The translations under genes and the position numbers were made by a program. 64,000 nucleotides of DNA from NCBI GenBank assembly GCA_015075625.1, contig JABTTZ010000002.1, positions 1,116,001 to 1,180,000 of the forward strand, given 5' to 3'. Below are positions 47,179 to 63,948 of this stretch, piece by piece; position 1 is the first letter of the stretch; every line of letters starts with the position of its first letter. The stretch is from Anaerolineales bacterium. GTDB lineage: Bacteria; Chloroflexota; Anaerolineae; Aggregatilineales; UBA2796. The notes under the pieces are model-generated. The model searched no databases, had not been told where the DNA came from, and was given only the letters and a program-made list of their open reading frames with translations.

Positions 47179-47353
47179 GAGCAATGGATTAACAAAGAGG
47201 AGGAAGGGGCTTAAAATCCCATGACGTACCTGAAAAGGCTGCACGGCGTCGTCGCCAAGTGGTAAGGCAAGGGTCTGCAAAGGACTTTCCCCATCGCTAA
47301 TTGAGAGAGCATTATAGCTCTCAATTGACCCCCTCAAACGAGGGGCTTTTTAT
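47179..47353 (+). repeat. Long direct repeat, copy 1 (ORF tail + tRNA-Cys-like half + terminator)
   Basis: Bases 47179-47282 match 48395-48498 over 104 bases with two mismatches by eye. The unit contains the last codons of an ORF (EQWINKEEEGA then stop), a spacer, and a tRNA-Cys-like 5' half (47245-47281). Copy 1 then has 34 extra bases before homology resumes at 47317 (GCTCTCAATT) and ends in a C-stem/G-stem hairpin with a T-run near 47347. The two copies bracket the HNH and ComF remnants. Confidence 0.85.
47245..47281 (+). other. tRNA-Cys-like 5' half (truncated tRNA, possible att remnant), copy 1
   Basis: The run has the features of the 5' half of tRNA-Cys: a GGCGTCG-type acceptor strand, a D-arm with GCCAAGTGGTAAGGC, and the anticodon loop with GCA (GGGTCTGCAAA). 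After the loop the sequence does not complete the anticodon stem, and no T-arm or 3' acceptor strand follows. It is therefore not a working tRNA gene. Break at the anticodon loop is a common crossover point for tRNA-targeting integrases. Confidence 0.6.
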
Positions 47354-47475
47354 TGCCCGACCTCTTGGCACAAAAAAGTGCTTTATAGCTAACCTTTGAT
47401 GCTACAATGACTTCATGACACGTCTCTTGGTTTGTTTTGTCTGTCTTGCCCTAAGTGAATGAGGAAGATATTCAG

Positions 47476-47730
47476 ATGATGAATTATGCACCGCCTGCCA
47501 GTATTCAGGAAGAAGTGCTGACTTTCTTGCTTTCGTCGCCTACACCGCAGCATGTGGTTGATTTTCACGCATCAGAAGCCGCACAAACCCGCTTACGCTA
47601 TTTGTTGGATGCCAATCGTGAGGGATACCTGACCCCAGAGGAACGTGCGGAATTGGACGAAGCCAGCCAGATGAATCATTTAATGATTCTGCTCAAGGCG
47701 AAAGCGCATAAGGCGATCCAAAATACATGA
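47476..47730 (+). CDS. Small protein encoded just upstream of an HNH endonuclease
   Basis: An 84-residue soluble protein (MMNYAPPASIQEEVLTFLLS; then ASEAAQTRLRYLLDANREGY and LTPEERAELDEASQMNHLMI). Proteins of this look are commonly found immediately before HNH endonuclease genes in Chloroflexota and cyanobacteria, an observation from memory; the role is unknown and may be antitoxin-like. GAGGA lies 10 nt before the ATG at 47476. Its stop overlaps the start of the HNH gene (ATGA). Confidence 0.7.
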   Translation: MMNYAPPASIQEEVLTFLLSSPTPQHVVDFHASEAAQTRLRYLLDANREGYLTPEERAELDEASQMNHLMILLKAKAHKAIQNT

Positions 47731-48136
47731 CCTACATCCCTGAAGCCTTGCGTCGTCAGGTCATTGAGCGTGCGGAAGGCTGTTGTGAATACTGCTTGAT
47801 TCACCAATCTGACAGTTTGTACACACATGAAGTTGATCACATTATCGCGGCGAGACCACCCTTGAGAATCTTTGCCTTGCCTGCCTAGATTGTAATCGCG
47901 CTAAGGGCAGTGATTTTGGCTCATTCGACCCAGAAACAGGTGAAATAGCCATGCTGTATAATCCCCGCCAACAAAGGTGGAAAGAGCATTTCCAATTGGA
48001 TGACACACACATTATTCCGTTGTCACCAGAGGGGCGCGTAACCGTGTTTATGCTAAATCTCAATAACGAAATCCGCATCAGGGCGCGTCAAGCGTTACTT
48101 GGATCTGGAAACTATCCCCCAAAGCGCATTGGGTGA
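47727..48136 (+). pseudogene. HNH endonuclease, frameshifted
   Basis: The first frame reads MTYIPEALRRQVIERAEGCC, EYCLIHQSDSLYTHEVDHII, the start of an HNH domain (CEYC, HEVDHI). About base 47850 a few bases are missing and the rest continues in another frame: GETTLENLCLACLDCNRAKG (CLDCNRAKG, the second zinc/HNH half), FDPETGEIAMLYNPRQQRW and HIIPLSPEGRVTVFML to a stop at 48136. The Lys/His/Gly residues normally between HIIA and GETTLEN are lost, so the gene is broken. It probably encoded a homing- or restriction-type nuclease. Confidence 0.85.
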
Positions 48137-48162
48137 GAGAAAACGGGTAACATAGCGCATAG

Positions 48163-48297
48163 CTACCCAAGATGCGGCGGTATATACTTCCCGCACCCTA
48201 CCACCTTCATTTGCCGTGCGCACTCATTTACCGTCGCTCCAGTCGTTATGACATCATCCACTATAAATACCTGCCTCCCACGCAAAAGATCGGGCTT
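48163..48297 (-). pseudogene. ComF-type phosphoribosyltransferase, C-terminal fragment
   Basis: Read leftward the frame gives KPDLLRGRQVFIVDDVITTG, then ATVNECARQMKVVGCGKY and a stop. This is the PRPP-binding segment and tail of a ComF/ComFC protein (VDDVITTGAT). Homology stops abruptly near 48298, where the open frame runs into an unrelated sequence, so only about 45 residues remain. The same motif occurs intact in the FtsK-ComFC fusion at 57920-60169, so this may be debris of a related element or of a chromosomal comF broken by insertion. Confidence 0.75.
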
Positions 48298-48298
48298 G

Positions 48299-48430
48299 CC
48301 CGTCGCCTTGATCATCGAGGATGGTGAGGTGAAGGTGGGGGTGATGAACTTCATACCCGACGCGAACGATTGGTTCACCAACCCCATCCCCCTAGAGCAA
48401 TGGATTGACAAAGAGAAGGAAGGGGCTTAA
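48299..48430 (+). pseudogene. ORF tail carried by repeat copy 2, unrecognised
   Basis: A 43-residue open stretch without its own start: PVALIIEDGEVKVGVMNFIP, DANDWFTNPIPLEQWIDKEK, EGA, stop. The last eleven residues have a near-identical counterpart in repeat copy 1 (EQWINKEEEGA). It begins where the ComF fragment on the other strand ends, so the point near 48298 is a junction. The parent protein is unknown. Confidence 0.4.
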
Positions 48431-48460
48431 AATCCCATGACGTACCTGAAAAGGCTGCAC

Positions 48461-48497
48461 GGCGTCGTCGCCAAGTGGTAAGGCAAGGGTCTGCAAA
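48461..48497 (+). other. tRNA-Cys-like 5' half, copy 2 (candidate element boundary)
   Basis: Identical to the tRNA-Cys-like half at 47245: acceptor 5' strand, D-arm and anticodon loop with GCA. Downstream only ACGCC (48508-48512) could pair with the acceptor 5' end; the 3' half of the anticodon arm and the T-arm are absent. Together with copy 1 it makes this the best candidate for the left attachment site of the accessory region. Confidence 0.6.
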
Positions 48498-48511
48498 GCT
48501 CTCAATTTACG

Positions 48512-48536
48512 CCCCCTCAAAGTAGAGGGGGTTTTT
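48512..48536 (+). terminator. Terminator at the scar/element border
   Basis: CCCCCTC (48512-48518) pairs with GAGGGGG (48525-48531) and is followed by TTTTT. It is the strongest hairpin of repeat copy 2. The final A+T stretch overlaps the stop codon of the leftward SH3 gene. Confidence 0.75.
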
Positions 48537-49752
48537 ATTTGGGGTAGATCGCAAATCGAGCATCTATTCCTTCACCCACAGCGACTACCTCAATTGCCCC
48601 CCGACGCCCTTCACTTGTCAGGATGCCTATTACGCTCCCCGCCCTGAACGAATCTCTTAGTACATGTTCGCCCTTGACCCCTTCCAAAAGATCAAAATGA
48701 ACATCGGTCATGACGATGTTGGAGATGATCGCTAGTTGCGCCCCACCTGTGGCATGTATCCCTGTGCCGTCAAGGTAGAAATCTGTCGTTCCTCCGTGAA
48801 GATCATAATTCGTGTTGGGGATGATCTCTATCCGGGACTCCACAAGTCGGGGGCGATCAACCCAATATCGCACTGTCATTTCGTGTTCGGGCAACGGTTG
48901 CCCCAACTGCATATCAGGATCGATAACGAGGGGGATTGTGTGTTCCCCAGTGTGATCAAGTGCTTTAGCCTGAATTGAAACCGTTCCTTCCCCTGCCGGG
49001 AACTTTGGTATAGATGCCCACAGGAACTGATCCCCATTCGCGCCCGCAACTGCGAACGCGCCCACATCAGAGGCGCTTACAATCGTCAGCTTTAGGATGA
49101 ACCATTCGCCCGGACGTGGCACAATCGGGTCCATGGTGTATTGGGTGATCGAAAGTCCGGGCGGCGGGGTGGCGGGGGATGGTGGATTGTCGTCATAGGT
49201 TGGCAGCATCATAGGATCGGCAATATCAATGAACCATGTGCTTACCCATGCGGGCGTACCCCAATACTGGAAGAATAGCCATTTCCCAGCTTCATCTCTT
49301 GCATCGAAGATGACGCGCCCACCGATCTTTAACACCCCAATTTGTTCACACTCCACACGCGGGCAAGCCCTCACCTTGACCGTATCCCTGACGATCCCTT
49401 GACGCGGGTCTTGGGCGTTCGCCCGGGCGGGGATCATCAGGGTAACAATGGAGATAATCCATAAGGCGCGTAAGCGTCGCCACAGCCGCCGCACAATCGA
49501 TCCGCGCCGCCGCTCCCTACGATATAGAGAAATAATCTCAGGGATCGTAAGTGAAGGGTGTTTCGACAATAAAAACCAAGCATGATCTGAGTTTCTTGCG
49601 GCGCGGGAAGCGATTAAATGCCGGATTGCGGTATGGGCGTCGCTGACGGGGCGTCCGTAAATTGTCCCATCGGTGGGGGTGAAACCCCTCGTTACGGGTG
49701 GCACGCGATCTCGCAGCGTGCGTCGGGGAAAAAAGTAACGGATGATTCTCAT
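48535..49752 (-). CDS. Membrane-anchored SH3-domain protein of the accessory element
   Basis: A 405-residue protein, last gene of the leftward operon. Residues ~1-90 are hydrophilic and cytoplasmic (TDGTIYGRPVSDAHTAIRHL, SLTIPEIISLYRRERRR). One span (~95-112) ends in a signal-peptide-like ARANAQ. A bacterial SH3 domain follows (~118-175; VKVRACPRVECEQIGVLKIG), then a C-terminal beta-rich domain (~200-405; VPRPGEWFILKLTIVSASDV) like an extracellular sugar- or peptide-binding fold. I know no such combination. An SH3 domain suggests contact with peptidoglycan. Confidence 0.75.
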   Translation of the reverse strand: MRIIRYFFPRRTLRDRVPPVTRGFTPTDGTIYGRPVSDAHTAIRHLIASRAARNSDHAWFLLSKHPSLTIPEIISLYRRERRRGSIVRRLWRRLRALWIISIVTLMIPARANAQDPRQGIVRDTVKVRACPRVECEQIGVLKIGGRVIFDARDEAGKWLFFQYWGTPAWVSTWFIDIADPMMLPTYDDNPPSPATPPPGLSITQYTMDPIVPRPGEWFILKLTIVSASDVGAFAVAGANGDQFLWASIPKFPAGEGTVSIQAKALDHTGEHTIPLVIDPDMQLGQPLPEHEMTVRYWVDRPRLVESRIEIIPNTNYDLHGGTTDFYLDGTGIHATGGAQLAIISNIVMTDVHFDLLEGVKGEHVLRDSFRAGSVIGILTSEGRRGAIEVVAVGEGIDARFAIYPK

Positions 49753-50196: not shown

Positions 50197-51864
50197 TCAC
50201 TTCGATGCATTGAGAATCCGTACCAACCGGACCCCTACCACGAGGGCAATTGCCACAAGTGCAATGAACGCAATGAAATCAACCAACCCTCCCGACATAG
50301 TGTTTAGCGTTCGGTATGTGTTAATTGCGTAATCCGCCGATGTTCCATCAAATGCATCCCCCACCACGAACGGCACGGTAGACAGTGTTAGCGCCGTTGG
50401 CGTTGGTCGAAAGCCGATAAAGCGACTTGTCGCAGTGGGAACGATTGGCAATAGGGTTGTGGTGAGAGTGAGAGTAATCGTCCCTGTGGGCGTTCGCGTG
50501 GCAAGTGCGACGGGGGTTGCCTCAGAGAAATTGCCGGGTGTGGCACTCGCCGCGATCAAGATGACAATCACAAAGATGAGCGCAATAAGGAACACTGCTG
50601 CGCCGGGCGACTGAGATACAAGACGGATCAACACCATGAGCGCACGCCACATGAAGAAAACGAAACTGATGACAAAAACGATAACCCTGACCAGAATATT
50701 GAATCCTATGACCAGCAAAAGGATCACCACAAGATCGCCCGTTTGACCAATTGACTCGCGCATTGTGCGCAAGACATAAAAGAAACCGCCGATGTTCCCC
50801 CCGATTTGATGCGCTTGATTGCGCAAATCTGCCATGGGCGTTCCCTGTGCATCAAGAAAAACCCGTGTAGACCACGCCTTGACCGCGCCTGAATATTGGG
50901 CAACCGAGGTGAGCGCCCCGTCCACCGGAATTAAGGCAACCCCCAGCACGTCACCGCTATACGCCGTTGCCAACATTGCCGTTTCGGTTGTTCGTGCCGG
51001 GATCGCCGAAGGAGCAACCATTGCCGGGCTAGGGAAGCGCGGCACTGGGAAGGGGAATCTCAAATCAGACGATTGTGGCGATGGGGTAGGAAAATGCCCT
51101 GATACAAGTGGTTCGAGGGTGTCTTGTGGCAATGCTGTGGGCGTTCCCGCACCCGGCGATGGGGAGGGTGTTTTTGTTGGAGTGAGTGGATTAGGCGTCC
51201 TCGTAAGTGAGGGCGTTAAGGTCGTAGTAGGGCGTGGCGTGTTTGTTGGTGGGGGAGTGTATTGTGATGTTGCGGTGGGTGTATGGGTTTGGGTAGGTGG
51301 TGTGGGAGTCCGGGTTACCTCGTTGGATGGGTTTTGGAAGCAAACACGATCCACAATAACGACAAACGCCTGCGCGGTATCAGGTGTTGCAGATGTCTGC
51401 ACAACATCAACTTGAAGTTCGGTTGAATCGACGGCGGGAAATTGTTGCGTGTAGACATTCCACTGGTAGAGTTGGTAGGATGATTGCTGAACAACAAACT
51501 GCGAACGTGGCACATAGCCAACCATCGGGGTGAATTCAAACCTGACAGGTATTTCTGTTCGTGCTGTGAAATAGACGCGAAAATCAATACGCACGATCTT
51601 ATTGTATTGATAGACGCGAACAATGCGCACATTTTCGGAATTGGGGTCAACCCCTACAGCATGAAAACCTTCCACTCCATAGGGTGATGATCCCGCTGTT
51701 TGGAATGTCCCAACCGCCGCCGCCCACATTGTCGCATTTGCGGCAGTATCTGTGATGCAGTAAAAACCCTGTGCATGGGCGCGTGCGGCGGGAATTACAA
51801 AGAGTAATCCCCCACTGACCAGACTGACTAGGGCGATTAATCCCCACAATTTATTACATTTCAT
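50197..51864 (-). CDS. Large exported membrane protein with Thr/Pro linker
   Basis: A 555-residue protein. Signal peptide LVSGGLLFVIPAARAHAQ; N-terminal beta domain (~33-178; VRIVRVYQYNKIVRIDFRVY, FQNPSNEV); Thr/Pro linker (~180-255); a spacer; then a membrane part with two or three spans (~375-445; GDLVVILLLVIGFNILVRVI, SPGAAVFLIALIFVIVILIA), a second Thr-rich stretch, and a last span (~530-550). The layout fits a surface-exposed assembly or channel component. The gene overlaps the end of the 630-residue protein gene by 11 bases. Confidence 0.7.
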   Translation of the reverse strand: MKCNKLWGLIALVSLVSGGLLFVIPAARAHAQGFYCITDTAANATMWAAAVGTFQTAGSSPYGVEGFHAVGVDPNSENVRIVRVYQYNKIVRIDFRVYFTARTEIPVRFEFTPMVGYVPRSQFVVQQSSYQLYQWNVYTQQFPAVDSTELQVDVVQTSATPDTAQAFVVIVDRVCFQNPSNEVTRTPTPPTQTHTPTATSQYTPPPTNTPRPTTTLTPSLTRTPNPLTPTKTPSPSPGAGTPTALPQDTLEPLVSGHFPTPSPQSSDLRFPFPVPRFPSPAMVAPSAIPARTTETAMLATAYSGDVLGVALIPVDGALTSVAQYSGAVKAWSTRVFLDAQGTPMADLRNQAHQIGGNIGGFFYVLRTMRESIGQTGDLVVILLLVIGFNILVRVIVFVISFVFFMWRALMVLIRLVSQSPGAAVFLIALIFVIVILIAASATPGNFSEATPVALATRTPTGTITLTLTTTLLPIVPTATSRFIGFRPTPTALTLSTVPFVVGDAFDGTSADYAINTYRTLNTMSGGLVDFIAFIALVAIALVVGVRLVRILNASK

Positions 51865-53746
51865 TGTTCAGTATCCCCACCCTGATAAGGTTCGTTGCCC
51901 AAACGATGGTGTCAATACTGATGATCGAGATAATCACAATGAATATGTAGTAGCCGGGACCCTGAAAAATCGTGTTGTCTAGAACATAGAAGGCGAGGCA
52001 GACAGGATATAGGACGCCTTCAGGGTTTACACATGAAAATGACTGGGAGATTGTCAGGGGCGGGGAATCGCCAAGCGGTGGCGCACCGCCGAGTGGCGCG
52101 GGCGCACCTGTGTTGAACCCAGACTCTAGAGACATAATTATCACGTCGCCCAACCCGAAGATTTCGGCGATCCATTGCAATACAGTTGCAAAGAATGACA
52201 ACACCGCATTGATGATCGCTCCGATCACTTGAAACACCGCGCCAATGACCAATCCCAATGTTTCAAATATTGTCCTGAAAAAGTTCACGATGCTAGATGC
52301 AGCATTAATAAGCCACTCCAAAATCCCGATAAGGAAATTCCCCACTCCCTGTATGATGTTTCGGAAATGCCCCCATAGCCACTCTGCGAATCGCGCCACA
52401 ACATTCAGCACGAATTGAATGATCTCCCCCATTGTGCCAACGATCCACTCTGCAAAGCCGATGATCCAGTTCAATATGTCTAGGATCGCTTTCCCGATTT
52501 GCCCTAAGATGATCCATAATTGACACTCTAAAAATTTGCGAAGTGAACACCACAGCCAGCCGATTGTGTTCAGTATGTTCTCAACGATGTGCTGAATGTG
52601 AGGCAGCCCCGCCACACCAATCACATCTTTGGGTTCATAGATGCACTCAAAGCATTCCTCTGATTTGGTATCCCTCACTTCCTCAGAAGACTCAATTTCG
52701 CTGATACACCAATAGTTGATGACAAGCCCAGCTTCAGGTTGTTCAGCCCCCGATTCAAACGATATGTCGGTAAATTTCCCGCTGAATCGATAGCCGCTCC
52801 GAATGAAGTAAGGTTCACCCTCAAAGAAACTCAGATCGTTAAGTTCGATTGTGTGTTGCGCCCCGTCAGTCGTAGTGCGTCCGATAACGTTCGATCCCGC
52901 CACGTTCCATATAAATTCTTGGGGTGGGGCGGGATTAGAATCGTAAATAACCTTGATGTTGTACTTTTTGGTTGTGTCGAGATTGCCCGCATACCTTGCG
53001 ACGCCGCCCGGTGGTAGATGTAAACCGTCTATTTGAATCGTTGCACCACCCGACACTGACCACACTGATGCTGTAAATTGCGCTCCTGACGGAAAAAGTA
53101 AGCAGCTAGGGCGGGTGACGATTGGCGCGGACGGTGTTCCGGTGGGCGACGGCGATGGTGTCAATGTCGGCGTCGGCGTGAATGTCGGGGTCGGCGTGAA
53201 TGTCGGGGTCGGCGTGAACGATGGATCGTAGATCGTGAAATAAGTGAATCTGAAATTGTTCCATGTATTGCCCCCCCCTGTCGAGAACGTAACAATAAAC
53301 TTTTTAGTTAAATGGTTGCCATTTTGATGTGATCGAGAATAATAGAATGAATCTGCGCCTACTGCTCCCGAACCGCCCCGATGTTCACTCAACAGCACAT
53401 CCGCGCTGTTGTATTGTCGTACCCAATAGGGCGCAACGATCCAGCCCTGCGGCGAGTTCCAATTCAACCCTACGGTGCGAGGATCGCCTAGCAGTGCGTC
53501 GTCACAGAGAATATGTACCTCTATGAAACGGTCATCTCCCGACGCTTGTGGGTAAATGCCGTCCCCACCAATCGTTCCCGACAACACCGTGACGCCTGAC
53601 GGTGCGCTACCAGTAAAATTCCAATTGAAAAAACGACAGTCCACACCCGATTGCGCCGAAGTCGGTCTTGCCCCAACCAAAAACATGCCCGCGAGTAGCG
53701 CCCCCAACAGGGAGACGAAAACGAGGGCATGTTTCGGGTTACGCAT
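51854..53746 (-). CDS. Large exported protein with amphipathic Trp-rich helical region
   Basis: A 630-residue protein. Signal peptide (LVFVSLLGALLAGMFLVGAR); an N-terminal beta domain (~34-175); a Thr/Pro linker made of a repeated FTPTPT unit; a second beta domain (~200-345); then ~170 residues (~375-545) of almost continuous Trp-rich amphipathic or hydrophobic helix (for example WIIGFAEWIVGTMGEIIQFV). A final span lies near the C-terminus (YYIFIVIISIISIDTIVWAT). The helical part recalls pore-forming, tape-measure or VirB6/TrbL-like segments, without sequence proof. It lies between the mini-protein genes and the 555-residue gene. Confidence 0.7.
   Translation of the reverse strand: MRNPKHALVFVSLLGALLAGMFLVGARPTSAQSGVDCRFFNWNFTGSAPSGVTVLSGTIGGDGIYPQASGDDRFIEVHILCDDALLGDPRTVGLNWNSPQGWIVAPYWVRQYNSADVLLSEHRGGSGAVGADSFYYSRSHQNGNHLTKKFIVTFSTGGGNTWNNFRFTYFTIYDPSFTPTPTFTPTPTFTPTPTLTPSPSPTGTPSAPIVTRPSCLLFPSGAQFTASVWSVSGGATIQIDGLHLPPGGVARYAGNLDTTKKYNIKVIYDSNPAPPQEFIWNVAGSNVIGRTTTDGAQHTIELNDLSFFEGEPYFIRSGYRFSGKFTDISFESGAEQPEAGLVINYWCISEIESSEEVRDTKSEECFECIYEPKDVIGVAGLPHIQHIVENILNTIGWLWCSLRKFLECQLWIILGQIGKAILDILNWIIGFAEWIVGTMGEIIQFVLNVVARFAEWLWGHFRNIIQGVGNFLIGILEWLINAASSIVNFFRTIFETLGLVIGAVFQVIGAIINAVLSFFATVLQWIAEIFGLGDVIIMSLESGFNTGAPAPLGGAPPLGDSPPLTISQSFSCVNPEGVLYPVCLAFYVLDNTIFQGPGYYIFIVIISIISIDTIVWATNLIRVGILNNEM
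53172..53220. repeat. 18-bp tandem repeat inside the 630-residue protein gene
   Basis: An 18-base unit (GTCGGCGTGAATGTCGGG and variants) is present nearly three times in a row. On the coding strand it encodes the FTPTPT repeats of the Thr/Pro linker. Coding repeat, not a CRISPR. Confidence 0.75.
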
Positions 53747-54105: not shown

Positions 54106-54218
54106 AGCCCGAATACCCTTTTGATTGCATCCCATGTAACCCGAACTAACGTCGCAACAATCAAGGCGACGATCCCGCACAGCACAGGAAGGGCGAAAAG
54201 CAAGGAAAACGTGATCAC
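54102..54218 (-). CDS. 38-residue single-span mini-protein
   Basis: Starts at GTG 54218, overlapping the stop of the LamG gene (GTGA): MITFSLLFALPVLCGIVALI, VATLVRVTWDAIKRVFGL. One long span and a basic C-terminal tail. Together with the 42- and 51-residue genes it makes a run of three tiny membrane proteins between a LamG surface protein and a large anchored protein. Confidence 0.6.
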   Translation of the reverse strand: MITFSLLFALPVLCGIVALIVATLVRVTWDAIKRVFGL

Positions 54219-55114
54219 CGTCGCCCCCGGAACATCAGAACGATCAAGACTGCAAACACGAGAAGCCCAACAGTGATCTCGCCAACGGTGAAGGTGTAGA
54301 TAAGTCCTACTTCCCGCCCGCTGGCGAGGGTGAGCGTCTCGGTATAATTGGCAGCGGGGGCAATGGTCGTGGTTGAGGGATCGGCTAATTCAGAAATTTC
54401 GTCAGCGTCTAGTGCCTCATTCCATAATGCGACGCGGGCGATTGATCCATACCACCCAGCACCCCCCGGCTGAACCCCTATATAGAGATCGTCCGTAGTG
54501 GACGCCCCGCCCACATAGCCACTCTCGGCGATTAATGTTCCATTTTGGTAAAGGCGCTGGGTAAATCCATCATTCGTATAGGCAAGGTGTACCCACGAAG
54601 ACAGAATCGAAAAGTTTGCACTGATCCCATTGCTATAGCCTGTCAGATATGCATTAATCTCCCCTGTATCGGGAAGGAATATCCCGTATCCTGTGTTCCA
54701 TGTTGCGCCGTCCGTTTTGGCGACGATCCCCCTCCAATACGTTGTCTCTGTGGCATTGACCCAAACAGAGATTGTTAGTTGTCCGGACGGATTCAATGTT
54801 GTTGAATTTGGAATAAACACCCAATCATTGATTCCATCGAAAAGCGGCGCGCTGAGTCCATCAGGGTGTATTGCCCCATTCAGGGTTGTTCCCTGATATG
54901 TGCCGTTGTTTCCATTCCCTGATAAGTCCATTGCTAGTGAGCCGCTTGTTTCATTCAGCGCCCAGTACCCCATGAGCGCCGCCGCACGGATTGCGAGAAC
55001 GCGCTGACTGTAGGTAAGGGCGTGGGCGGGTGTGGCGACGCTGATCGTGCTGATCGTAAAGAGGGCGATCAGCACCCAGATCACGAGACGGCTAGGGCGG
55101 CGGCGTGCGACCAA
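54215..55114 (-). CDS. LamG/concanavalin-fold surface protein with C-terminal membrane anchor
   Basis: A 299-residue exported lectin-like protein. TTG 55114 has GGAGG 6 nt upstream and yields a good signal peptide (LVIWVLIALFTISTISVATP). The LamG domain spans ~50-235: LMGYWALNETSGSLAMDLSG, LFDGINDWVFIPNSTTLNPS, LTISVWVNATETTYWRGIVA, YIGVQPGGAGWYGSIARVAL and WNEALDADEIS are all hallmarks. A last span (FTVGEITVGLLVFAVLIVLM) and RGRR end the chain, so the lectin is displayed outside. It would suit an adhesin for host or recipient recognition. Translationally coupled both ways. Confidence 0.85.
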   Translation of the reverse strand: MVARRRPSRLVIWVLIALFTISTISVATPAHALTYSQRVLAIRAAALMGYWALNETSGSLAMDLSGNGNNGTYQGTTLNGAIHPDGLSAPLFDGINDWVFIPNSTTLNPSGQLTISVWVNATETTYWRGIVAKTDGATWNTGYGIFLPDTGEINAYLTGYSNGISANFSILSSWVHLAYTNDGFTQRLYQNGTLIAESGYVGGASTTDDLYIGVQPGGAGWYGSIARVALWNEALDADEISELADPSTTTIAPAANYTETLTLASGREVGLIYTFTVGEITVGLLVFAVLIVLMFRGRR

Positions 55115-55544
55115 TCCACACCTCCGGTAATCCCATGTAGTACGCCCGTGCATCTTGTTTCGACTGGAAAAGCGTCACGGCGATCCCATCGGAAATCAGC
55201 ACTGGATCAATCTCCACGACTTGTGAGAATGCGGCGTAAATATCATCCGCCGTTGGCTCTGCAAACCATCGACCCTCTATAAGTGCCTTTGTGCGATCCA
55301 CAGAGATGATCCAATGCAGGAGTTCTGCGGGTTGTGGGCGTCCGGACAAATTGCCCAGCCGGGCAAGGGATTGCCGTAGCCGAGAATCCGAGAGCAGTTG
55401 CAGAAGAGTTGCGTCCGCCCCGGACGCAACTTCTACGAGGATAGTTCCTGTCCATCCCGGATCGACTGGGGGTTGCGCCCCCGCTGTCACGACGGGGGGC
55501 AACAAGAACAAAAGGGCAAGGGAGAGAGAGGACAGGCGACGCAT
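55092..55544 (-). CDS. Exported protein, first gene of the leftward operon, unrecognised
   Basis: A 150-residue protein with a clear signal peptide (LSLALLFLLPPVVTAGAQ) and a small alpha/beta domain (WTGTILVEVASGADATLLQL, HWIISVDRTKALIEGRWFAE). No family. Its end overlaps the start of the LamG gene by 23 bases. The gap to the rightward winged-helix operon is only about 125 bases and must hold both promoters. Confidence 0.7.
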   Translation of the reverse strand: MRRLSSLSLALLFLLPPVVTAGAQPPVDPGWTGTILVEVASGADATLLQLLSDSRLRQSLARLGNLSGRPQPAELLHWIISVDRTKALIEGRWFAEPTADDIYAAFSQVVEIDPVLISDGIAVTLFQSKQDARAYYMGLPEVWIGRTPPP

Positions 55545-55924: not shown

Positions 55925-56139
55925 TGGACTTTACCGACTTTACACGATGGCAACAGGCAATGAGTGATCGTGAGATCGGGGTATGGACTATCGTTATGCT
56001 GGTAGTCACGGCGCTTATCATTTTGTATGTTGTGAAGTGGGTTGCCCCGGCGGACACTGAGAAAACGGGGCGCTGGCTCATGCGGACATACTACGTTTAC
56101 CTTGCAGTTCTGATGATCGCGGCGGTGTTTCGTGCTTAA
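55921..56139 (+). CDS. Small two-span membrane protein
   Basis: 72 residues; two hydrophobic segments (VWTIVMLVVTALIILYVVKW and TYYVYLAVLMIAAVFRA) joined by a short polar loop. No family. It overlaps its neighbours at both ends (ATGA at the start, 8 bases at the end), so it is part of the tight rightward operon. Confidence 0.65.
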   Translation: MMDFTDFTRWQQAMSDREIGVWTIVMLVVTALIILYVVKWVAPADTEKTGRWLMRTYYVYLAVLMIAAVFRA

Positions 56140-57589
56140 ACGCCTTTCTCATATTCCCGCCCCGATCCTGTTGATCGCCCTTGCCGCTGCGCTCCGATTT
56201 GTGAATCTGGGATCAGAGTCGCTGTGGTATGACGAGTCCTTCACCGCATGGGTATCAAAGTTAGATTTTCAATCCATGATCGAGGCAATCCGGGGGGATG
56301 TTCATCCGCCGCTATCTTACATTTTGACATGGGGTGTTGTGAGGGTCTTCGGTGACTCTGAATTTGCCCTTAGATTGATCCCAGCGCTCTTTGGGTGTCT
56401 CGCTCCAGTGCTGATTCATAGGATCGCCCGCGCTATTCATTTTGAGCGCCGCACAGCACTTACCGCCGGGCTAATCGCGGCGGTCCTGCCGGGGCTGCTG
56501 TACTACAGTCAGGACGCCCGGATGTACCCCGAACTTGTGGTGTTCGTTTTGGTCACGGTATGGGGAGCAGTGTCTAAGTCGGGGGGGCTATTCCTCATCG
56601 GCGGCGTGGGCGCGGCTTACACTCAAAACTATGGCTTGTTCTACATAGCGGCGATCTCCGTCGCCATGTTCTTTACCCATCATCGCACCGGAGGCGTGAT
56701 TCGTGTTGCAGTGATAGCCGCCGCCTACCTTCCATGGCTACCAGTAATGTTGAGTCAAACAGGCGATGTTGCGGACGGTTTTTGGATACCGTCACTGACG
56801 TTCCCGGCGGCAATCCTACCCGCCATGACGAATACAATGGGAACGCGGATCGCCGATATGTTCCAAATTCACCTGTATGGCGGGGCGCTCATGGCGACGG
56901 TGATCGGCATCTATGCTTCGCGGCGATGGTTGTTTCGCGGGCGTGGACTGATCATCCTTGCAGCGATTTTCGGTGCGCCCTTCCTGGCGGCGGTGTTGTC
57001 ATGGGTTTGGAAACCGATCTATCTTTCGCGGGGACTCCTCCCCAGCGCGGTCTTGATCGCCCTCGTTTGGGCATATGCTCTGCACCACTTGTCACGGGGA
57101 AACCGCCGCGTCATGGGGGCGATCCTTATCCCCGCGCTGATCATTGGGGTGATCTCCCATTACGCGGTGACGGGGCGTGATGATTGGCGCTCATGGGTAC
57201 AACCCGTCAGAACAAAATGGGAGATGGGGGATGTGATTTACAACACCGCCGTTCATACGACAATCAATCTGGGCTACTACCTACAGGGGTATCCCTATCG
57301 TTTGCGTCCGCACGCCTCAGACCTGAATCAATCCCTCACTGAAACGACAAAAGTCGCTATGAAGTTTCATCAAGATGATTTTGATGACCTGCCCGCGCAA
57401 GGCTACCGCCGGGCATGGCTCATGTTTGCCCTCAATCCGATGTCTCGCCGGGATGAAAAATCCGAGATCGCCCGGATTCTCACCCACTATCCTAATAAAC
57501 GAATCGCCGTCAAGAGCGGCGATTACTACGAAGTGGCGATCTATCTCGTGGAATTGAATGAAGGAGTCACATATGGACATGGACATTGA
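56132..57589 (+). CDS. GT39-type membrane glycosyltransferase within the element
   Basis: A 485-residue GT-C protein. The first loop has the acidic family motif LGSESLWYDESFTAWVSKLD, then GDVHPPLSYILTWGVVRVFG and LLYYSQDARMYPELVVFVLV, exactly the ArnT/PMT-like pattern of bacterial GT39 proteins, followed by about ten spans and a soluble C-terminal domain (~400-485). It would glycosylate a surface protein or lipid from a polyprenyl-P-sugar. Possible targets are the operon's own Thr/Pro-rich surface proteins, since PMT enzymes modify Ser/Thr. Start GTG 56132. Confidence 0.85.
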   Translation: MLKRLSHIPAPILLIALAAALRFVNLGSESLWYDESFTAWVSKLDFQSMIEAIRGDVHPPLSYILTWGVVRVFGDSEFALRLIPALFGCLAPVLIHRIARAIHFERRTALTAGLIAAVLPGLLYYSQDARMYPELVVFVLVTVWGAVSKSGGLFLIGGVGAAYTQNYGLFYIAAISVAMFFTHHRTGGVIRVAVIAAAYLPWLPVMLSQTGDVADGFWIPSLTFPAAILPAMTNTMGTRIADMFQIHLYGGALMATVIGIYASRRWLFRGRGLIILAAIFGAPFLAAVLSWVWKPIYLSRGLLPSAVLIALVWAYALHHLSRGNRRVMGAILIPALIIGVISHYAVTGRDDWRSWVQPVRTKWEMGDVIYNTAVHTTINLGYYLQGYPYRLRPHASDLNQSLTETTKVAMKFHQDDFDDLPAQGYRRAWLMFALNPMSRRDEKSEIARILTHYPNKRIAVKSGDYYEVAIYLVELNEGVTYGHGH

Positions 57590-57923
57590 CACAATCGTTG
57601 CCGCCTACAAAGATTTCATGGCAGCAAAATATCCCGACGATCCGCTACCAGATCAACCCATTGTGAAATTCTTTGATCCCGGTGACGATGTGCCGGATCA
57701 TGGACGTTTTCTCGTATTGCCCCGTGAACAATGGCTCAAGGATCGAGATCAAAAGGGAATAAAGGACTCCCTGATGATTGCTAGACGTATGCGGCGCAAG
57801 CCCCCAGACGTAGGGTACTACCTGAACACTGGATCGTCATGGTTGTTCATTGCGCCCACACCCTCAGACGCGGTGCTGTGGTTTGACACCCTGAAATCGG
57901 AGATTGTTAACATCACAGCATGA
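57573..57923 (+). CDS. Small soluble protein before FtsK-ComFC, unrecognised
   Basis: 116 residues from ATG 57573 (AAGGAG 6 nt upstream): MDMDIDTIVAAYKDFMAAKY, PDDPLPDQPIVKFFDPGDDV, then RKPPDVGYYLNTGSSWLFIA. Acidic N-terminus, mixed alpha/beta look, no membrane span. No family. Its stop overlaps the FtsK-ComFC start (ATGA), so it may be a partner of that protein. Confidence 0.65.
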   Translation: MDMDIDTIVAAYKDFMAAKYPDDPLPDQPIVKFFDPGDDVPDHGRFLVLPREQWLKDRDQKGIKDSLMIARRMRRKPPDVGYYLNTGSSWLFIAPTPSDAVLWFDTLKSEIVNITA

Positions 57924-60169
57924 CCACCGCGCCCGCCCGCGTTCGCCTTATGCCGGGATGGATGATCGCCCTTTCACCCTTTCTGGGAATCATCCTTCCC
58001 CGGCGTTCTTCCCGTCGCCTGATGGAGCGGCGGCGGGCTACTCTTGATCGCCTTGAGCGGGAAAAGGTTTATGCCCTCCGTCGGGCGGAAATTTACAAAG
58101 AGGCACGTTTGTATGAGGGGATCATTGTTGAGTCGTTGGCACGAATGGGTTTTTGCTGGAATCCCCGGCAATCACGGGGCAATGATGAACAGGCACGGCG
58201 GCGTGGGCGCGTCGTGAAGGTCAAGATCGAAAAGGTCAGGTTTGACGAATATCGGATCGTTTACAAGCTGTTGGTGCGGCGGAGGGGTCTTATGCGTTCC
58301 CGCGATATGCTCCCCTACAAAACAAGTGCGGCGGAAATTGTCGCCGAGAAAACCCTAGAGGAATTGGGCTTTGCCCTAGAGCGCGTCGTCAAGTCAAATG
58401 ACAACCCGACAAAGGGGGCGCGGTTGATTGTCTATAGGCAAGAGGGCGCGGGCGTACTGCCTAAGCTGATCAAATACGAGGCGATCCGCGAATATTTCCC
58501 TGTGGATAAGCTGCTAGATGCACCGTTGATCGTGGGCGTTGGAAAAAATTCCGTTGTTCTTACCTCTTCATTGCAGAAACAGCCCCACTGGTTTATTGCG
58601 GGCGCGTCGAACTCTGGGAAGTCAAACGAGATGAACCAAATCATCGCGTCGTGGGCGATACATCTCACCCCGGCGGATATTCAATTCATCATGATCGATC
58701 CCAAGATTGTTGAACTCCAGTTCTATGAGCGGCTGCCGCACCTCATGCGTCCGATCATCCACAAAGTTGATGAGGCGATAGACGCCCTGCATGACGCCCT
58801 TAGCCTCATTGATCGACGCACGGAACTACTTGCCTCTGATCGGGTGAAGAATATCAGCGAATACAACGCATTGCACCCCGACGCCCGGTTGCCCCGCATC
58901 GTGATCGTCATTGAGGAACTTGCCCGCTTGCTGGGAATCGAGGCGGGGAAGGCGGCTAAAAAAGCACAGTCGCTGATGGTGGCAATCGGCAACACCGGGC
59001 GAGCGGCGGGAGTCCACTTGATTGCCGTTACCCAAACCCCCAAAAAAGAGGTGATGCCCACCGAACTAAAAGCGAACATGGCACGGATGGTTGGCAAAGT
59101 AGATTCCATTGTTGCATCTATGATCGTTCTGTCCACAAGCCATGCTGCTTTGATAGATGATGTGCCGGGGCGGATGATCCTTGCGGTGGACTCTAACCGT
59201 CAGGACTTTCAAGCGCCGCTGATTACGAACGCCGATGTGCAACATGCCGTCGCCATTGCCTGTGGAAAACATGCCGGGTTGATTCGCCTTGACGGGCTGA
59301 TCATTGTCCCCCTGGCGGATGGGATCATCCGCCATACGATCACCCACTGCGACGGGAAACTTTCGGCGCGGGGCAATCTATTTTATTTCCGAGATTTTGC
59401 CCTGACTGAAACTCACCTTAAAGACGTGTATCAGACAATCGTCAAAACTGACACGCCTATTCAGGTTGGGCGGGCAATCTACTCTGTGAAACGGGAAGGC
59501 AGTGGCTATCGCCTTGTCTTGCATAGCACAATTGAAGATATACCGCCCGTTCCCCCCGCTACCGACCCCGACCCCACCGATTCCGGCTGGCGGGTTGTGG
59601 ATATGCCCGTCCCCGCCCCGGCACAGGCAACACAGGACGAAACTACCGGGCGCGATTTACCGGGGATCACGGAACGTCGCGCAACGGCGATCTATAAACG
59701 GGATCATGATGTTGCCGATGCAATCTGGGCGTTGAAAACCGATCCCACCGGGGCAGAATGGCTAGGGCGACGGCTTGCTGATGAGTTTCGCCGCGCTGCA
59801 TGGAATGTTGACCTCTTCATCCCGATCCCACTTTCAGAAGAAAAGTACCGCACGCGGGGGTACAACCAAGCTGACCTTCTCGCTGCTGTTGCAAGTCGAG
59901 AGTCCGGTATTCCCTGTGCGTCCTATGCATTGGAGCGTATGGGCGTGGGGATTGAGCAAAAGCGCAAGCGGACGAAAGAGTCCCGGACGGCGGCAACGGC
60001 AACCTTTTGGGCAATCCCTGATCTCGTGCGTGGGCGGCGAGTCTGCTTAGTGGATGATGTGATCACGACGGGTGCAACGATGATCGCGGCGGCGGCGGCG
60101 CTCAGGGACGCGGGCGCGGTGGATGTCTATGCGTTGGCTGTGGCGTCAGGCTATGTGAGTGAGGGCTGA
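57920..60169 (+). CDS. FtsK/SpoIIIE-type DNA translocase fused to a ComFC-type phosphoribosyltransferase
   Basis: A 749-residue fusion. Residues ~10-30 are weakly hydrophobic; ~35-220 is a charged region with a wing-like part. Residues ~195-470 form an FtsK/SpoIIIE motor: Walker A HWFIAGASNSGKSNEMNQII (~226-238), FIMIDPKIVELQFYERLPHL, Walker B PRIVIVIEELARLLGIEA (~325) and AAGVHLIAVTQTP. A Pro-rich linker follows (~540-575), then ComFC: YKRDHDVADAIWALKTDPTG, VDLFIPIPLSEEKYRTRGYN and the PRPP loop CLVDDVITTGATM (~710). The zinc ribbon usual at the ComFC N-terminus is absent. ComFC proteins act in ssDNA uptake during transformation, and FtsK-like proteins pump dsDNA. I know no earlier description of the two in one chain. 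Likely the element's DNA-transfer or packaging engine. Confidence 0.9.
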   Translation: MTTAPARVRLMPGWMIALSPFLGIILPRRSSRRLMERRRATLDRLEREKVYALRRAEIYKEARLYEGIIVESLARMGFCWNPRQSRGNDEQARRRGRVVKVKIEKVRFDEYRIVYKLLVRRRGLMRSRDMLPYKTSAAEIVAEKTLEELGFALERVVKSNDNPTKGARLIVYRQEGAGVLPKLIKYEAIREYFPVDKLLDAPLIVGVGKNSVVLTSSLQKQPHWFIAGASNSGKSNEMNQIIASWAIHLTPADIQFIMIDPKIVELQFYERLPHLMRPIIHKVDEAIDALHDALSLIDRRTELLASDRVKNISEYNALHPDARLPRIVIVIEELARLLGIEAGKAAKKAQSLMVAIGNTGRAAGVHLIAVTQTPKKEVMPTELKANMARMVGKVDSIVASMIVLSTSHAALIDDVPGRMILAVDSNRQDFQAPLITNADVQHAVAIACGKHAGLIRLDGLIIVPLADGIIRHTITHCDGKLSARGNLFYFRDFALTETHLKDVYQTIVKTDTPIQVGRAIYSVKREGSGYRLVLHSTIEDIPPVPPATDPDPTDSGWRVVDMPVPAPAQATQDETTGRDLPGITERRATAIYKRDHDVADAIWALKTDPTGAEWLGRRLADEFRRAAWNVDLFIPIPLSEEKYRTRGYNQADLLAAVASRESGIPCASYALERMGVGIEQKRKRTKESRTAATATFWAIPDLVRGRRVCLVDDVITTGATMIAAAAALRDAGAVDVYALAVASGYVSEG

Positions 60170-63382: not shown

Positions 63383-63390
63383 GAGGATTG

Positions 63391-63948
63391 ATGTCACTGG
63401 AAAGTTTGAAACTCTTGTGGGATGCACAAAATTTCGTCGTTCTGGACACAGAGACGACGGGGTTGGGTTGGGGTGCAGAAATTGTTGAGATCGCAATCAT
63501 AGACTACCGGGGAAACATCCTCCTCAATGGCCGTATACGCCCACAGAACGGAATCCCTGAGGACGCCGCACGAATTCACGGAATCAGGGATAAGGATGTC
63601 TCTGATTGCCCGTCGTGGCAGAAAATTTGTGGTGAGGTGAAGGACGCGCTGATAGATCGCGATGTGATCATTTACAACGCCAAATACGATGTAGAGATGC
63701 TGCAATCCTCCGATATGGTCTGCGGACTCAAAAACGGGTGGATCAGCATAGCGCACTATGAATGTGCGATGTTGGGATACGCAGAATTCAGAGGCGATTG
63801 GAACCACTATCACCGAAATTATCGATGGCACAAGCTGACTGAGGCAATAAGCCAGATGGGATTGCCACCGATCCACGCCCATTCCGCGCTTGGCGATTGC
63901 CAGATGACCCTCTCGCTCATGAACCATATTTTCGGAGATCACTCATGA
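63391..63948 (+). CDS. DnaQ-like DEDDh 3'-5' exonuclease
   Basis: A 185-residue exonuclease. Motif Exo I: FVVLDTETTGLGWGAEIVEI; Exo II: VIIYNAKYDVEMLQ; Exo IIIe: HSALGDCQMTLSLM with the His and Asp of the DEDDh class. It resembles the stand-alone proofreading/RNase T-like exonucleases often carried by phages and plasmids. GGAGGA lies just before ATG 63391 (a TTG at 63388 is possible). It is the last gene fully inside the window. Confidence 0.88.
   Translation: MSLESLKLLWDAQNFVVLDTETTGLGWGAEIVEIAIIDYRGNILLNGRIRPQNGIPEDAARIHGIRDKDVSDCPSWQKICGEVKDALIDRDVIIYNAKYDVEMLQSSDMVCGLKNGWISIAHYECAMLGYAEFRGDWNHYHRNYRWHKLTEAISQMGLPPIHAHSALGDCQMTLSLMNHIFGDHS

Follow-up and report, generated by a model that had tools for sequence, protein, structure and literature searches.

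The nearest known pairs of a motor and a phosphoribosyltransferase (PRTase) are RqlH/PsyrT, a RecQ helicase joined to a PRTase, and ComFA/ComFC. In RqlH the PRTase lies C-terminally behind the RecQ motor, and its PRPP pocket is required for the genotoxic effect; not every rqlH has a DprA-like partner (PMC4670107). ComFC binds ssDNA as well as PRPP and NMPs, and its pocket is needed for the passage of DNA during uptake; the role of the PRTase there is a long-standing question. Mutation of the zinc ribbon in H. pylori ComFC reduced membrane association (PMC9005727). ComFC-like PRTases likewise form part of polyvalent proteins, multidomain products of phages and conjugative elements; for such mobile-element PRTases Iyer et al. 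(2017) suggest a part in making or sensing nucleotides as DNA enters (PMC5512222). In AICEs (actinomycete integrative and conjugative elements), dsDNA is transferred by one FtsK/SpoIIIE-type protein (PMC3218068).

We analysed a 64-kb stretch of DNA, referred to below as the window (C2:1116001-1180000). It encodes a protein, P0001, in which an FtsK motor is fused to a ComF-type PRTase. The gene and its parts are:

57920..60169, + strand: FtsK-PRTase fusion gene P0001, 749 aa (ORF list, Pfam, NCBIfam)
57920..58522, + strand: N-terminal region, residues 1-201, common to the mobile-element FtsK family only
58523..59041, + strand: FtsK/SpoIIIE motor core, Pfam residues 202-374 (Pfam, AlphaFold, Foldseek)
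59207..59554, + strand: conserved post-motor region, residues 430-545, common to family members
59555..59686, + strand: proline-rich linker, residues ~546-589 (sequence; pLDDT under 50)
59687..60154, + strand: ComF-type PRTase domain, residues ~590-745, without zinc ribbon (Pfam, NCBIfam, alignment, tree)

The fusion is real as assembled. An earlier note had claimed a single 749-residue frame with both domains, and translation confirms that the frame is uninterrupted. Pfam matches FtsK_SpoIIIE to the motor core (E 4.3e-32) and Pribosyltran to residues 652-734 (E 3.8e-7), and NCBIfam places ComF TIGR00201 at residues 614-741 of the full protein (E 2.9e-19), so that a PRTase is found by domain search after residue 575. 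These HMM scores rule out a chance or weak domain call. Three-phase base composition is coding-like across the motor and PRTase parts, with the weakest periodicity at the 3' end. A frame-shifted stand-alone comF, or two genes, can be rejected: P0001 contains no stop, and the other forward frames hold no ComF-style zinc-ribbon motif upstream of the domain. Just upstream of the PRTase part these frames have many stops and no paired CxxC, which argues against an obvious frame-shifted comF.

The motor carries Walker A (GASNSGKS, residues 228-235) and the IDPK segment (259-262), in line with the intact FtsK motor described earlier. That description needs one correction, as the Walker B sequence IVIVIEE ends in a Glu-Glu pair, E332-E333, instead of the usual Asp-Glu. 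In an AlphaFold model of full-length P0001 (37 alignment rows) pLDDT is about 90-98 over residues 240-380 and poor elsewhere. A Foldseek search with the modelled motor gave E. coli FtsK (2ius, E 7e-22) as the best match, followed by P. aeruginosa FtsK, TcpA of pCW3 (a conjugation coupling protein, 2e-16) and EccC. The motor fold is thus like that of FtsK and TcpA, whereas the N-terminal region, the post-motor region and the PRTase tail of P0001 differ from both. By position and pattern we infer that the post-motor region is winged-helix-like, at low model confidence.

The PRTase had been described as ComFC-like and devoid of its zinc ribbon, and the profile searches uphold this. With the domain alone, ComF is the top NCBIfam model (73.7 bits) and GntX the second (52.6 bits). 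The ComF scores of P0001 lie below the curated TIGR00201 cut-off of 233.55, which does not discriminate here, as the host's own ordinary ComF also falls below it with 97.6 bits. The PRPP loop VDDVITTGAT is present at residues 711-720. P0001 has five cysteines in all and no CxxC pair; nearly every complete ComF relative has at least two CxxC pairs ahead of the PRTase domain. Conserved ComF positions, defined as those kept in at least 80% of 48 ComFs, are retained at 32 of 42 sites. These include all PRPP-loop and PPi-loop motif residues: D712, D713, T716, T717, G718 and T720 in the PRPP loop, K606, and R646-G-Y-N-Q650. Changes fall in the hood and flexible loop (R642K, T677G, R688S, N691A, Y607T). 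In a maximum-likelihood tree the domain groups with ComFs of the same order at 89/90 support, which is below the strict mark, and on a very long branch (2.41).

Judged from the sequence, the domain is probably a captured host-order ComF that lost its zinc ribbon and changed fast while retaining its ligand pocket. Since the pocket is retained, binding of PRPP or a nucleotide is likely; the changed hood positions and the very long branch suggest that catalysis may be lost or altered. The domain is poorly modelled, with a pLDDT of 39 in a single-sequence model of the domain alone. Like ComFC it is of the ComF type and has a PRPP loop and an RGYNQ motif. Unlike ComFC it lacks the N-terminal four-Cys zinc finger, is fused to a motor and lies in a mobile element, not in a competence locus; with the zinc finger missing, it is best described as ComF-derived yet no ComFC. 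An ordinary ComF of the host, like its ComEC and DprA, is encoded away from the element.

No further FtsK-PRTase fusion was found in 154 genomes of the order, in 301 genomes of the phylum or, at the sensitivity used, in phage, plasmid and viral collections. A motif scan of 142 FtsK-type frames in the retrieved loci returned none, one scan of genome contigs gave ordinary FtsK only, and the open literature that we searched does not contain the architecture. Two long ComF frames (in G407 and G612) proved to be ComFs with a zinc ribbon, the frame in G723 is an orotate PRTase, and an apparently ribbon-less ComF in G513 has its zinc ribbon in a shifted frame. The pairing in P0001 is a single example among what could be searched. 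The claim that no system of this architecture has been described thus stands for the FtsK-PRTase combination in the genomes, collections and open literature searched, and is otherwise too strong: fusion of a motor to a ComF-like PRTase is known from RqlH/PsyrT, of the RecQ type (PMC4670107), and PRTases are known from multidomain proteins of mobile elements, where they form a distinct group and occur in other architectures (PMC5512222).

P0001 lies in an integrative element at tRNA-Cys. A repeat of ~100 bp that includes the 5' half of tRNA-Cys is present in three copies with 98% identity, two of them in the window and one at C2:1184716-1184809; the intact tRNA-Cys(GCA) is at C2:1184773-1184844, and no tRNA-Cys was found within the window itself. 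The repeats and the position of the intact tRNA-Cys give a main element of about 20.4 kb, from window position 48395 to C2:1184809. The features of the element and its left flank are:

47179..47282, + strand: third, outer att copy, adjoining tsaD (repeat comparison)
47727..47888, + strand: HNH endonuclease fragment (Pfam PF01844, just below its cut-off)
48095..48345, - strand: frame-shifted remnant of a second ComF-like PRTase (GRQVFIVDDVITTGATVNECARQMK ... REVYTAASWVAM)
48395..48498, + strand: left att repeat of the main element, 5' tRNA-Cys half and upstream sequence (98% identical to attR, C2:1184716-1184809)
48535..49752, - strand: SH3_3-like protein, 405 aa, at the element's left end (weak Pfam match; syntenic in G003)
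50197..51864, - strand: Thr/Pro-rich membrane protein, 555 aa (no homology to a relative detected in the synteny comparison)
51854..53746, - strand: hydrophobic protein, 630 aa, weakly tape-measure-like (PHROG; synteny)
54215..55153, - strand: Laminin_G_3 (LamG) protein with a C-terminal TM (Pfam; syntenic in G003)
56132..57589, + strand: PMT_2 / GT39-like membrane glycosyltransferase (Pfam; adjoins the translocase in G003 and G008 too)
57558..57923, + strand: conserved 121-aa protein of the GT39-120aa-FtsK cassette (synteny with G003; no Pfam match)
63388..63948, + strand: DnaQ-like exonuclease, RNase_T family (Pfam)
C2:1180581-1181951, outside the window: candidate Rep, 456 aa (no Pfam match)
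C2:1181967-1183088, outside the window: MreB-like/ParM-type protein (Pfam/PHROG)
C2:1183399-1184337, outside the window: tyrosine recombinase (PF00589 Phage_integrase, E 2.9e-32)

The element further encodes HTH proteins and membrane proteins. The 121-aa gene overlaps the glycosyltransferase gene upstream, and its stop at 57923 overlaps the ATG of P0001 downstream. From these overlaps the three genes look translationally coupled.

In several respects the element resembles AICEs of the pSAM2 type, in which TraB is the translocase: it has a tyrosine recombinase for integration at a tRNA, a single FtsK/SpoIIIE protein and a candidate replication gene, neither a relaxase nor a T4SS was found in it, and tandem copies at one att site occur in both (PMC3218068). 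The integrase domains that define AICEs, PF00589 or PF07508, are represented here by PF00589 in the recombinase. PF01580 occurs in P0001 only, which would act in transfer, and among the ORFs of the element that were scanned, Pfam returned no relaxase, VirB4, VirD4 or T4SS match. The direct repeats at the tRNA are also as in AICEs, with the difference that they cover the 5' half of the gene and not the usual 3' end. None of the Rep families of AICEs (RepSA, RepAM PF12307, Prim-Pol PF09250) was recognised by Pfam in the candidate Rep, and for this reason we regard the element as AICE-like and do not file it as an AICE. Its host appears not to be actinobacterial, and its translocase carries a PRTase tail, two further differences. 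From the character of the sequence and one hit named as Dehalococcoidales, the host is probably a member of the Chloroflexota. A search for TraB-like short tandem repeats (clt) gave nothing beyond short arrays of low score, without an obvious cluster of 8-bp units.

Between the two left att copies, at 47179-48498, lies a 1.2-kb element remnant that holds the HNH fragment and the broken ComF-like piece. This shows that ComF-like genes have been cargo at the tRNA-Cys att site more than once. The segments of the broken piece match many ComFs about equally and are too short for it to be placed as a sister of the P0001 PRTase. The position of the remnant between att copies suggests tandem accretion at tRNA-Cys.

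A profile built from four relatives was run against 154 genomes of the host's order and places the translocase in a family of 21 members, with E values from 1e-296 to 6e-78 and a clear separation from ordinary FtsK. Most members end soon after the post-motor region. When the members were checked for a PRTase, 18 by reading in full and three by motif scan, P0001 was the only one to have it; the other 20 lack it, which implies that the PRTase is not needed for the core function of the family. No comF was found beside the translocase in the relatives; in 17 genomes with family members the chromosomal comF is located elsewhere. Synteny was demonstrated for two relatives, largely for G003 and partly for G008. 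The G003 element (22 kb, C23:132827-155221) is flanked by perfect repeats of 44 bp at tRNA-Gly(CCC) and shares the order SH3-like, 140-aa, 630-aa, LamG, glycosyltransferase, 120-aa, FtsK, Rep, recombinase; what G008 has in common is the 630-aa protein, the glycosyltransferase, FtsK and the ParM-like protein. The G003 translocase (L013:1417-3630, + strand) ends in an extra C-terminal tail of another kind, in which residues ~640-700 weakly resemble Pox_D5 / primase-C (E 0.029), and that of G008 has no extra tail. The tail behind the post-motor region thus seems exchangeable among family members. Together, the element of P0001 and its relatives are a newly delineated element family.

We favour, with a probability of roughly 0.45, the reading that P0001 is the dsDNA translocase of an AICE-like element and that the PRTase is most likely an accessory of transfer or establishment. 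The element would excise from tRNA-Cys by its own tyrosine recombinase and replicate by its own candidate Rep, and the FtsK-type ring of P0001 would move its DNA. A host-order ComF PRTase would have been joined through the proline-rich linker behind the post-motor domain, keeping its PRPP-binding core and losing the zinc ribbon. This would place a PRPP- or nucleotide-binding domain on the DNA being moved by the ring, where it would bind DNA or a nucleotide signal beside the pump, like ComFC beside ComFA or the PRTase behind the RqlH helicase. The accessory role is favoured on account of the binding of ssDNA and PRPP by ComFC, the requirement for the pocket in RqlH and the proposal of Iyer et al. 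Several points speak against it: the example is single and the other 20 family members lack a PRTase, the changed hood positions and the very long branch suggest that catalysis may be lost or altered, the candidate Rep is of no known family, and the PRTase is poorly modelled. The earlier note had pictured a transfer machine in which the PRTase handles DNA at the membrane. The context of DNA transfer agrees with the first part (a tRNA-integrated element with a recombinase, a candidate Rep and an FtsK, and no relaxase or T4SS by Pfam). A location at the membrane is not supported: P0001 has no clear transmembrane segment (top 19-residue Kyte-Doolittle mean 1.64, residues 452-470) and is devoid of the zinc ribbon that H. 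pylori ComFC needs for its association with the membrane (PMC9005727).

The strongest competitor, though we think it improbable, is that a recent stop-loss or deletion fused a comF-like gene to the translocase and that the PRTase is a passenger with no selected role. A single case among 21 family members in 154 genomes is what such an accident would look like, as are the very long branch and the altered hood positions; the broken ComF-like piece next door indicates that such genes come and go at the locus, and the G003 member bears a different extra tail. Decay would, however, have hit the PRPP-loop and PPi-loop residues, and these are kept at ~2.4 changes per site in a frame that is open to its end. 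Somewhat less probable again is an anti-phage or toxin-type effector as in PsyrT (RqlH) and ShosT, which would harm the cell or an invader once a DNA event is sensed, with an FtsK motor replacing the helicase. RqlH shares with P0001 an ATP-driven DNA motor with a C-terminal ComF-like PRTase, its toxicity depends on the PRTase pocket (PMC4670107), and the PADLOC models of ShosT (2.8e-8) and PsyrT (3.2e-7) match residues 663-745. PRTase-DprA pairs act in phage defence (PMC9122126), and PRTases recur in conflict proteins of mobile elements (PMC5512222). Against these similarities, ComF models fit P0001 far better than those of PsyrT or ShosT, and its motor is no RecQ-like helicase; it is of the FtsK type, from a translocase family whose other members do without a PRTase. 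The known systems have a DprA-like partner, and none is encoded in the element, the DprA-family genes of the host being confined to contigs C3 and C4.

Least probable, and in our view quite unlikely, is that the element is a provirus or satellite and P0001 a packaging- or ejection-side ATPase, not a conjugative pump. The best PHROG match is indeed a phage FtsK/SpoIIIE-like family (phrog_1358, 1.5e-55), which is listed among moron, auxiliary and host takeover genes, and the 630-aa and LamG proteins weakly match tape-measure and virion proteins (PHROG). The tape-measure matches coincide with a hydrophobic, helical segment and may reflect its composition; Pfam and PHROG scans found no capsid, portal or terminase genes, and close relatives of P0001 are absent from the viral contigs.

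Within the favoured reading of a translocase with an accessory PRTase, a more specific version can be put forward as a speculative proposal: a conjugative-type dsDNA translocase may have acquired a competence PRTase, and binding of PRPP or a nucleotide would then gate DNA transfer or make the DNA ready in the recipient. If this is true, P0001 would be the FtsK-type counterpart of ComFA-ComFC and RqlH, and the ComF PRTase a portable module for DNA motors. The fusion argues that the PRTase works beside a DNA motor in general, and the natural link to a well-understood dsDNA motor allows it to be studied beside a pump of measurable activity. Our results also point to a family of AICE-like elements outside Actinobacteria, and the 21 members of the translocase family can be mined.

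Some further observations were made. Just outside the G003 element there is a second integrase gene (131774-132685), which suggests another tandem array. In three genera a PMT_2 glycosyltransferase is the neighbour of the mobile-element FtsK, and in two of these a protein of ~120 aa lies in between; the neighbourhoods are:

56132-60169 of the window: glycosyltransferase-FtsK neighbourhood
G003:C23:140550-144990: glycosyltransferase-FtsK neighbourhood
G008:C4:107189-110718: glycosyltransferase-FtsK neighbourhood

Proteins of the EccC/EssC type commonly carry three or four ATPase domains. A single open frame of 2890 aa in one genome (G000:C1:629922-636074, - strand) has seven FtsK_SpoIIIE matches, and frames of 2848-2855 aa with several such matches occur in genomes of the family.
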